From Alphaproteobacteria bacterium (GTDB taxonomy: Bacteria; Pseudomonadota; Alphaproteobacteria; SHVP01), in NCBI GenBank assembly GCA_016869765.1, contig VGES01000016.1, forward strand, positions 1 through 64,000: a stretch of DNA of 64,000 bases. Reading direction: 5' to 3'. The translations under genes and the position numbers were made by a program. This document shows, one piece after another, positions 46,279 to 50,075 of this stretch. Below the pieces are notes generated by a model. That model did no database searches and had not been told where the DNA came from. It saw nothing but the letters and a program-made list of their open reading frames with translations. Each line of letters begins with the position of its first letter. Position 1 is the stretch's first letter.

Positions 46279-46953
46279 TCAACGCAGCCGCTCCGCGAGG
46301 ACCCTTGCGAGCCAATCTTCCAGGTCTGCGACGGGATGATGGACGAAATCCGGCGCTGCATTCGATGGCTCGGGCCGGACCCACACGGTCGTCATGCCGC
46401 AGGCGGCGGCCGGGCCCAGGTTGCGCACCGTATCCTCGACCATGACGGTCTTGTTCGGATCGATGATCGCTGTTGCGATCAGGCGTTGGTACGGCTCGGC
46501 GAAGGGCTTCGGCCAATAGTCGGCTGCCGCGATGTCGAAGATCGTCGGGAAGTGATGCGTGATGCCAAGCCGGCTCAGGACGCTGACGGCATGGCGCGTC
46601 GAGCCATTCGTGTAGATGAGTTTCCGTCCGGGCAGCGCGGCGAGCAGCGTGTCGAGGCGCGCGTTGCGATCGAGCACGCCGTAGTCGATGTCGTGGACGA
46701 AATTCAGGAATCCCTCGGGTTCGATGGTGTGTTCGGTCATCAGGCCGCGAAGGGTGCTACCGTGCTCGACGTGAAATCGTCGACGCAGGGTCCGGGACTG
46801 TTCGCTGTCCAGGCCGAGGTGCCGTTCGACGAACTGCCCGATCCGGTGATCGACCTGGGTGAATAGGGCGCAGCGCGCTGGATAGAGCGTATTGTCGAGA
46901 TCGAACACCCAGGTCTCGGCGCCGGCAATGTCGCTTGAGTGGTGAAGGGGCAC
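46279..46953 (-). CDS. HAD-superfamily pyrimidine 5'-nucleotidase
   Basis: A 224-aa HAD hydrolase of the SDT1-like pyrimidine 5'-nucleotidase group. Motif I is WVFDLDNTLYPARC, the DLDNTLYP variant of this group, with a helical cap including RFHVEHGSTLRGLM. Motif II is LIYTNGSTRHA, motif III Lys is in YWPKPFAEPY, and motif IV is VMVEDTVRNL. It dephosphorylates UMP/CMP-like nucleotides in other organisms. It lies 51 nt upstream of dapD on the same strand and commonly neighbours it in alphaproteobacteria. Confidence 0.93.
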   Translation of the reverse strand: MPLHHSSDIAGAETWVFDLDNTLYPARCALFTQVDHRIGQFVERHLGLDSEQSRTLRRRFHVEHGSTLRGLMTEHTIEPEGFLNFVHDIDYGVLDRNARLDTLLAALPGRKLIYTNGSTRHAVSVLSRLGITHHFPTIFDIAAADYWPKPFAEPYQRLIATAIIDPNKTVMVEDTVRNLGPAAACGMTTVWVRPEPSNAAPDFVHHPVADLEDWLARVLAERLR

Positions 46954-47033
46954 GTCCCAGTGTGCGAAAGCGGGGCTCGCCGTTCAAGGCCGGGTGAGTC
47001 CAAGAGCCAGCAGATTTCGGTTAGGGTGGACGG

Positions 47034-48227
47034 GTGACCACGACCGTCGTCAAGATCCCGGACGAGTTGACGCTGACGCCGCGCGCGATCGTAGCCGGCT
47101 TTCCTGGGCCAGCCCTCCTGCTCGACTCCGGCGGCCATGTCCTGGCGGCCAATCAACCCGGGGCGGAACTGGCCGACGGCGTCCGCTTGGGCAAGACCCC
47201 GCGAATCGGGGAGATCGCTCGCGAAGCTGCGGCCCATGGCCGACCGGCCCAGGGCGATATCGAGATCATGCGCGGTGATGACCCGACGACCCTCGATATC
47301 ATCGCGTTGCCGCTGAGCCACCGAACGACAATGTTCGTCCTGGTCTTGGCCCGCGAATCGACGCTCGAACGGAATTTCATCAACGCCCTTGTGTCCTCGC
47401 GTCAGTTGTTCAAGGACCTCGTCAGCTGCTCCTCCGACTTCGCCTGGGAAACCAAAGCCGACGGCACGTTCGCTTTCGTCTCCAACCGCGGGGCCCTTGG
47501 CCACGGTGCGCGGGAGTTGTTTGGCCGTTCGCCGGCCAACATGCGGGTCGCGCCCCCCGATGGCAGTGAACCGGGCCCATTTCCCTTCGACAGTCGCGAA
47601 CCGCTCAACGACATCGAGGTTTGGCTGGAGGACGCCCTGGGGGAACCAGCCTGCCTCTTGACGTCGTGTGTGCCCGTGTTCGACGAGCAACGGGTGTGGC
47701 TGGGTGCGCGTGGCGTTTGCCGCGACGTAACCGAGGCGCGCAAGCGCGACTCGGCGCTTCGCCGATTGCGCGACCGCGAACACCTGATCGGTGAGATCGT
47801 CAACGCGATCCGCACCGAGGTCGAGCCAGGGGAGATTTTCGATGCCGCAGTTCGCTCGACGGCAACGACGCTGCGTGCGACCCACTGCTGGGTCGTGCGA
47901 CGCTTCTCCGATGGCCGGTTCACCCGACCGCTGCGTCACGCCGGACCGGGCGGAGAACCGTCCTCGGACTTGTCGGAATCGGTGGCCGCGCAACTCGGCG
48001 GCGCCGCCGACGATGTTTTCGTGCGCCTGTCGGATACGACCTGGCATGTGCCAACCGGCCTCGCCCGACATCACAATCTCATGAAAGGTGCGATTTGCGC
48101 GGCGCGGGCGGAGGGCGACCAGCCCTGGGACGACGAGGATCGGGCACTGATGGTGGGCGTGAGCGATCACCTCGGAATCGCCATCGCGCAAATCGAGAGC
48201 CGTGAACGCCTCGAGGAGTTGTCGTGA
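47034..48227 (+). CDS. PAS-GAF sensor part of a diguanylate cyclase, ended by an in-frame TGA
   Basis: The 397-aa open frame holds a PAS-like region (about 20-110), a second PAS domain (about 125-235, with FAWETKADGTFAFVSNRGA and GARGVCRDVTEARKRD), then a GAF domain (about 255-390, ending SDHLGIAIAQIE). It stops at TGA 48225-48227 in LEELS-stop-TDELT. The same frame then resumes with a GGDEF domain, so TGA sits at one codon of the usual PAS/GAF-GGDEF linker, often CGA or CGC for Arg. A CGA-to-TGA change would explain it. The intact gene would span 47034-48761 (575 aa). The start is GTG 47034. Confidence 0.85.
   Translation: MTTTVVKIPDELTLTPRAIVAGFPGPALLLDSGGHVLAANQPGAELADGVRLGKTPRIGEIAREAAAHGRPAQGDIEIMRGDDPTTLDIIALPLSHRTTMFVLVLARESTLERNFINALVSSRQLFKDLVSCSSDFAWETKADGTFAFVSNRGALGHGARELFGRSPANMRVAPPDGSEPGPFPFDSREPLNDIEVWLEDALGEPACLLTSCVPVFDEQRVWLGARGVCRDVTEARKRDSALRRLRDREHLIGEIVNAIRTEVEPGEIFDAAVRSTATTLRATHCWVVRRFSDGRFTRPLRHAGPGGEPSSDLSESVAAQLGGAADDVFVRLSDTTWHVPTGLARHHNLMKGAICAARAEGDQPWDDEDRALMVGVSDHLGIAIAQIESRERLEELS
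48225..48227 (+). other. In-frame TGA interrupting the PAS-GAF-GGDEF reading frame
   Basis: The codons around it read GAG GAG TTG TCG TGA ACC GAC GAG TTG ACC (E-E-L-S-stop-T-D-E-L-T). Domain architecture and frame are continuous on both sides. It may be a nonsense mutation, a consensus base error, or a read-through/re-initiation site. Confidence 0.85.
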
Positions 48228-48236
48228 ACCGACGAG

Positions 48237-48761
48237 TTGACCAAGTTGTTCAACCGACGGGCCTTCACGGAGGAGGTCGAACGGCGCCTCCATGCCTTGG
48301 CGCGGAGCAAGCGTCGGGCCGCGCTGTTCTACGTCGACCTCGACAACTTCAAAAAGGTCAACGACATCCGCGGTCACCAGCAGGGGGACGAGGCCCTGAA
48401 AGCGTTGGCGGCAATGCTGGTCCGTACGAGCCGGGCCGGGGACATCGTCGCGCGCCTCGGGGGCGACGAATTCGCGATGTGGCTGGAGGAAACCGACATG
48501 CCTTCGGCGCAGGCCAAGGCGGATCTTCTCCTGGGAGAAAGCCGGGTGCTGCGTCCCTATTCCGGCAGTGACGATTTCCCGCTCGGAATTTCGATCGGTG
48601 TGGCGATGACGGATCCCGCCTCGGACGAGAAATTCGAGGCCCTGGTGCATCGCGCCGATGAGACGATGTATCACTCGAAACGCGGCGGAAAGGGCCGCTG
48701 GGTCATATCCCCGGGTCCCGGATTGCCGACCGTGGAGAGAGCGCGGAGAGAACATGCTTAG
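48237..48761 (+). CDS. GGDEF (diguanylate cyclase) domain part, separated from its sensor by the TGA
   Basis: A 174-aa GGDEF domain in exactly the same frame as the upstream PAS-GAF part. It has LTKLFNRRAF, FYVDLDNFKKVNDIRGHQQGD (metal Asp, substrate Asn/Asp), and RLGGDEFAMWLE with an intact active site at 48459-48473. The inhibitory I-site RAGD lies five residues before GGDEF. The domain should make c-di-GMP from two GTP if expressed. TTG 48237 could serve as a re-initiation codon 9 nt after the TGA, but no Shine-Dalgarno at correct spacing is seen. It overlaps the ATG at 48754 of the next gene. Confidence 0.8.
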   Translation: MTKLFNRRAFTEEVERRLHALARSKRRAALFYVDLDNFKKVNDIRGHQQGDEALKALAAMLVRTSRAGDIVARLGGDEFAMWLEETDMPSAQAKADLLLGESRVLRPYSGSDDFPLGISIGVAMTDPASDEKFEALVHRADETMYHSKRGGKGRWVISPGPGLPTVERARREHA

Positions 48762-48773
48762 TCGGCTGTTTGG

Positions 48774-50075
48774 TTGGAGCGCGGGACGCAAAAGCCGCCG
48801 ATCACCTACGATCAGGAGAAGGAGTTGGTGGCGCATCCCGACGCCGAGGTGCGTGCCGACCTCGCCAGTCGTGAGGATGCTCGCCCCGAGATCCTGTATT
48901 TTCTCGCGAACGACAAGTCGCCGTCCGTCCGTGCCGAGATCGCCGCCAACGCCTCGACGCCGCGCCAAGCCGACAAGCTTCTGGCCAGCGACGTCGATGA
49001 CGACGTTAGAAAAATCCTCGCCCGCAAGATCGGTCGCCTGATTCCTGGGTTGTCCGAGCGCGAGGCCGAGCGGCTTCGCAATCTGACCTTCGAAGTGCTG
49101 GAGATCCTCGCGGAAGACCACGTCGCCGAGGTCCGCCAGATCGTGGCCGAGGAGATCAAGCATGCGGCCAACGTGCCGCCGCATATCGTCAAGAAGCTCG
49201 CCCGTGACATCGAACACATCGTCTCGACGCCGATCCTCCAGTATTCGGTGCTTTTGAGCGATCAGGATTTGCTCGAGATCGTCGCGGGCGGTGGATCGCC
49301 CGAGGTTTTGAGCGCGATTTCGCGGCGCCTCAACGTCAGTACGAAGGTGTGCGACGCCATCGTCAGCACCAACGAAACAGCAGGTATCGCGGCCCTGCTG
49401 GCCAATCCGAGTGCGCAGATTCGCGAGGAGACGCTCGATTCGCTCATCGACAAGGCCCCGAGCCGGCGCAGTTGGCACGAGCCCCTGGTGCGTCGTCCCA
49501 GGCTTTCGCCAAAGGCCGTGCGCCGCATCGCCGGGTTCGTCGCGGCGGCATTGCTCAACGTCCTGAGTGAGCGCGAGGACATCGATGACCATGCCCGCGA
49601 AGAGGTGCGACGCGCGGTCAAGAAGCGGCTTGCGGAAGAGCCTGACGAAGCGCCGGCGGAGAAGGAGAAACGGGGTGGCGCCGAGGGTGACGCCGAGGCC
49701 GCCAAGCGCGCCAAGAAGCTCCTGGCCGAGGGAAAACTCGACGACGAAGCGATTCGCGCCGCGGCCGAAATGGGTCAACGGCCGTTCGTCAACCATGCGC
49801 TCGCGCTTCGCGCCAAACTGCCGGTCGAACTCGCGCGGGCCGTGACGGCGAGCCAGGCTGGAAAACCGATGACGGCGTTGTGCTGGCGCGCCAGTCTTTC
49901 GATGCGCACGGCGCTCACCCTGCAGAAGCACCAGGCGAGGATTTCATCCGCCTCGATCGTCAACGCGCGAAACGGCGTCGACTACCCGATGACGGAAGAG
50001 GAGATGGCCTGGTTCGTCGACTATTTCGCGAACGCCACCCCGGCCTCAGCCGGCGAACCCGTCAATCGCGGGTGA
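48774..50075 (+). CDS. DUF2336 family HEAT-repeat-like protein, probable frameshift near the start
   Basis: A 433-aa alpha-helical repeat protein that matches the DUF2336 family of alphaproteobacteria: [40 protein letters not shown], then repeated helical pairs such as [16 protein letters not shown] and [23 protein letters not shown]. There is a Glu/Lys-rich linker (about 285-315) and a conserved C-terminus [22 protein letters not shown]. The expected N-terminus, [13 protein letters not shown], is present in another frame from ATG 48754. Adding one A to the run at 48790-48793 would join it as ..GRKKPPITY. No known activity. The last 14 nt overlap argB. Confidence 0.85.
48790..48793 (+). other. 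Putative single-base frameshift in an A run at the DUF2336 start
   Basis: ATG 48754 (preceded by GGAGAGAAC) encodes [14 protein letters not shown], then loses the conserved frame. A run of five instead of four A at 48790-48793 restores [14 protein letters not shown]. The position in a homopolymer makes a sequencing indel or slippage plausible. Confidence 0.75.

Follow-up and report, generated by a model that had tools for sequence, protein, structure and literature searches.

A diguanylate cyclase gene at positions 47034 to 48761 on the forward strand of the 64,000-nucleotide stretch of alphaproteobacterial DNA analysed here (the window) is interrupted by one in-frame TGA, which probably is a genuine nonsense mutation in a cyclase-DUF2336/SpbR operon undergoing decay, i.e. 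a recent loss of function with pseudogene formation. The stop is derived, the cyclase is otherwise intact, the adjoining gene carries a frame lesion of its own, and the same operon has been damaged or lost independently in related genera.

Translation of the cyclase gene yields a single reading frame with exactly one internal stop, the TGA at 48225 to 48227, placed at the joint between sensor and GGDEF parts by translation and by ortholog alignment. Its context is LEELS-stop-TDELTKLFNRR, with 397 residues upstream and 177 residues downstream. The sensor part (47034 to 48224) consists of an N-terminal PAS-like region, a PAS_4 domain (residues 142 to 236, above the Pfam cut-off), a GAF-like region (residues ≈265 to 385, where GAF models score below their own cut-offs) and a linker helix ending in LEELS; orthologs align with it along its full length. 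The GGDEF part (48228 to 48761, ending in TAG) belongs to the GGDEF family by score (PF00990, 2.5e-39; 135 bits versus a cut-off of 23.8), and the match begins at the first codon past the TGA. Both the RxxD-type I-site, RAGD, and the GGDEF active-site motif are present. The sequence-only reading, which had proposed a PAS-GAF-GGDEF cyclase held in one frame across a lone TGA, with active site and I-site intact, is thus borne out, the GAF-like region being the weaker of its domain assignments. Coding composition is good in both halves, on either side of the stop. Because the TGA lies between them, the catalytic domain is not translated jointly with the dimerising input domain. When the window was scanned by codon composition for pairs of same-frame segments separated by a single stop, the cyclase pair was recovered, but most pairs were antisense or came from adjacent genes. 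On the reverse strand, a 1063-residue open frame (46740 to 49931) lies antisense to the entire cyclase and to the greater part of the DUF2336 gene; it is probably a shadow frame of the GC-rich coding sequence.

Relatives of the cyclase were sought among related genomes and among GTDB genomes, the latter contributing 80 loci, all alphaproteobacterial where named; the source genus and species are represented by one genome. In the orthologs that contain this region, sensor and GGDEF are fused in one frame, and a stop in the linker was found only in the relative G005. Since all orthologs but this one carry both parts in one protein, the TGA is the derived state and the fused cyclase the ancestral one. 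In G002, the relative closest in sequence, contig ends interrupt the cyclase within the GAF region; the second of its contigs runs through LEELSRTDELTQLFNRR with no stop. At the TGA column of a 77-row alignment, arginine occupies 56 rows, followed by E (6), S (4), F (3) and N (3), with C, K, T and Y also present. Among the options named from the sequence alone, a nonsense mutation is best supported by this predominance of arginine. PAS/GAF-GGDEF sensor cyclases of other alphaproteobacteria (Magnetospirillum, Azospirillum, Emcibacter, Terasakiella and others) show the same domain order, the same linker and a downstream DUF2336 gene; unlike them, the window copy is broken by one stop. It is scarcely conceivable that this lineage natively encodes sensor and GGDEF as two genes. 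Although the good coding composition on both sides of the stop and the linker stop of G005 would fit such an arrangement, all other relatives including G002 are fused, the G005 stop lies at a different codon and is accompanied by GGHEF, and the joint of the window gene has no ribosome site. A search of the relatives for separate genes, each with its own ribosome site, which would speak against a split cyclase, returned single fused genes instead.

A second lesion, which the sequence-only reading had missed, lies about 550 bases beyond the cyclase TGA in the next gene of the operon, the DUF2336/SpbR gene. Comparison with relatives places a one-base frame change in the stretch from approximately 48778 to 48802. 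The conserved start of the gene (48754 to 48777, forward strand; ATG, MLSRLFGW, motif MLxRLFGW) is in a frame that differs from the gene body; in relatives of the family the protein starts MLNRLFGW or MLDRLFGW, in frame with KPPITYD or similar. The main frame (48774 to 50075, forward strand) encodes 433 residues from TTG 48774, a codon with no evident ribosome site upstream, and matches PF10098 at 3.7e-48. Its match to the NCBIfam SpbR model NF052659 (8.3e-38) reaches 130 bits versus a curated cut-off of 400, and the gene is therefore treated as an SpbR-like member of the DUF2336 family and not filed as SpbR. Relative to SpbR of Caulobacter crescentus, to which it is related through both this model and Pfam DUF2336, it is a distant family member with an N-terminal frame lesion. 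SpbR of Caulobacter crescentus was reportedly the subject of Wang and Bowman 2019, a work cited in PMC12700997; our literature search on DUF2336 found no papers on the family. The frames of both the cyclase and the DUF2336 gene are thus disrupted where those of relatives are intact, as in pseudogenes, and the flanking dapD, dapE, pyrimidine 5'-nucleotidase, argB, yihA and yidC genes are full length when compared with their families.

The two damaged genes form a conserved pair. DUF2336 lies downstream on the same strand at 76 of the 82 sensor loci, the other six ending 0 to 681 bases past the sensor match; accordingly, a DUF2336/SpbR-like gene adjoins the cyclase at every alphaproteobacterial locus with enough downstream sequence (76/76; L025 to L104), an adjacency that is known in the direction from cyclase to DUF2336, all of these loci having been found via the cyclase. 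Together with the joint absence of both genes from one genus described below, this adjacency suggests one functional unit. The earlier view of the locus as intact save for one stop, the lesion being recent or tolerated, holds for the cyclase but is incomplete for the operon, and the frame shift in the partner gene points to decay of the whole unit and not to a tolerated split.

An error of the consensus sequence, affecting both lesions or the TGA alone and leaving the gene intact in the cell, is an unlikely explanation. It would be in keeping with the draft state of the source genome (3.99 Mb in 164 contigs; 99.64% complete, 2.27% contamination) and with the conservation of everything else in the cyclase and DUF2336 gene; that the remainder of both genes looks unimpaired is likewise what consensus errors would produce, and in this respect counts against decay. 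As a background for internal stops we used domain matches of large families in the source genome. None was interrupted among 112 ABC_tran, 67 adh_short and 16 receiver domain matches (0/195), versus one of the four GGDEF domains in the genome (Fisher p 0.02), these controls bounding the error rate better than the decay, because they count in-domain stops only and because selection on ABC genes is stronger than on the cyclase. The TGA stands out against this background, and with neighbouring genes at full length, two errors within one non-essential operon would need an unusual local error rate. Favouring decay, the GGDEF part does not deviate at any of the 35 columns that 95% of orthologs conserve, which is expected of a recent lesion.

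A stop that is tolerated through a restart at TTG 48237 or 48246, giving a sensor-free and unregulated GGDEF protein, has little probability. In Shigella flexneri, dgcE, dgcM, dgcN and dgcQ are degenerate diguanylate cyclases of which several have been shown to make c-di-GMP, although the authors could not fully explain the production routes (PMC11327459). Like the window gene, they are intact in relatives and carry a premature stop ahead of a GGDEF domain that is itself undamaged; dgcE, dgcQ and dgcN still make c-di-GMP despite such stops, some of these genes without a clear ribosome site (PMC11327459). These precedents and the intact GGDEF sequence of the window speak for a restart, and given the activity of the Shigella cyclases a small amount of GGDEF product may be made from the window gene. 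However, neither TTG 48237 to 48239, the first in-frame start after the TGA, nor TTG 48246 or TTG 48297 has a Shine-Dalgarno-like site at a usable distance. The GAGGAG at 48213 to 48218 lies 18 nt from TTG 48237, in agreement with the earlier judgement that it is too far away to serve this codon. Moreover, dgcM and dgcQ of Shigella have an ATG beside the stop whereas there is none at the joint of the window gene, the GTG at 48224 overlapping the TGA opens a different frame, and initiation at TTG 48237 would leave out both the dimerising input part and the conserved TDE of the TDELT entry. Re-initiation, which had been offered as one option for the TGA, hence finds no ribosome-site support at any in-frame start. 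The window cyclase, known from sequence alone, further differs from the Shigella genes in that its partner gene is broken too, which also argues against a restart. We consider it improbable, to a slightly greater degree, that the stop was selected for, uncoupling GGDEF from the sensor and yielding a low-level sensor-free cyclase by re-initiation, with the linker stop of G005 representing the same route.

Basal read-through of UGA occurs in bacteria. Read-through of the window TGA by a near-cognate tRNA or as selenocysteine, with a full-length cyclase made at low level, is highly improbable here. The TGA column tolerates many residues in orthologs, and full-length products have been seen, unexplained, for Shigella dgcQ and dgcN (PMC11327459). 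Against this, the RNA fold around the TGA is unremarkable (z -0.88), and of the 54 high-scoring coding segments in the window 24 terminate in TGA, indicating that it is an ordinary stop here. Selenocysteine, the form of read-through for which no tRNA-Sec could be found in the genome, is very unlikely: the eight best matches to the tRNA-Sec model are Ser, Leu, Tyr/Gly and Cys tRNAs, the two that pass the gathering score are ordinary tRNAs (the matches over the cut-off being tRNA-Ser), and cysteine is rare at the TGA column of relatives (1/77).

Decay of the operon, the reading we prefer, has parallels elsewhere in the family. The cyclase-DUF2336 operon is intact in G001, G003 and G006, and in G002 as far as its contigs show. 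G005, a metagenome-assembled genome (PW3.metabat2.2) with a contig coverage of 8, has a linker TAA 11 codons upstream of the position of the window's TGA, GGHEF instead of GGDEF, and a stop inside the DUF2336 gene. In this genome, stops are found inside or at 3 of the 6 GGDEF genes and inside 2 of the 20 receiver domains (L006, L025, L121, L122). That G005 is simply error-ridden is not supported by its ABC genes, of which none of 68 matches holds a stop, though the two receiver domains do; decay of its signalling genes seems to be under way, unless they are error-prone at 8-fold coverage. In G008, the frame shifts within the cyclase sensor. Neither the cyclase nor the DUF2336 gene was found in the three genomes of genus g5. 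Elsewhere, L034 and L060, the latter from outside the family, have a change of frame in the sensor near residues 80 to 107; the shift at L060 indicates that cyclase loci in metagenome-assembled genomes are occasionally broken. Breakage or loss of the cyclase-DUF2336 unit has occurred several times within one family, the two partners going together.

Loss of flagella is a possible setting for these events. Of ten genomes of the order, G000 (99.6% complete), G003 and G005 gave no match to flagellar rod families, versus 4 to 6 such matches in most of the others, which suggests repeated loss of flagella in the order. Of the seven genomes that keep the operon, lesions are present in two of the three without rod genes and in one of the four with them. 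Exceptions occur in both directions: the operon is intact in G003 although no rod genes were found there, rod genes coexist with a lesion in G008, and they are present in genus g5, where the operon is missing. Any connection between the loss of flagella and the operon lesions is therefore only suggestive, and the poor tracking of one by the other counts against the decay reading. An attractive, though loose, parallel is the convergent loss of c-di-GMP regulators and of SpbR in those Caulobacteraceae lineages that have no flagella (PMC12700997); the 2025 survey lists SpbR among the regulators lost convergently with dimorphism in this family, and counts it as one of only two such lost regulators that are not tied to c-di-GMP (PMC12700997).

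Under the decay reading, the ancestor would have had an ordinary fused PAS-GAF-like-GGDEF diguanylate cyclase, co-transcribed with the DUF2336/SpbR gene. With the nonsense mutation at the joint, translation would stop at LEELS and yield a sensor that has no output, and the cyclase would be absent or made only in traces; the frame of the partner gene is lost as well, just past its conserved start. Selection on the cyclase-DUF2336 signalling branch would have been relaxed, possibly alongside the loss of flagella. Three points here are inferences: the presence of both lesions in the living cell, a low output of GGDEF protein, and relaxed selection on the branch.

As a cyclase interrupted by a nonsense codon, the window gene probably adds another example of decay among c-di-GMP genes, which is a familiar type of event. 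What gives it value is its setting, as the cyclase is fused and adjacent to DUF2336/SpbR in many alphaproteobacteria, yet repeatedly damaged in one family. The conserved adjacency of cyclase and DUF2336/SpbR suggests a tie between the SpbR-like protein and c-di-GMP that can be tested.
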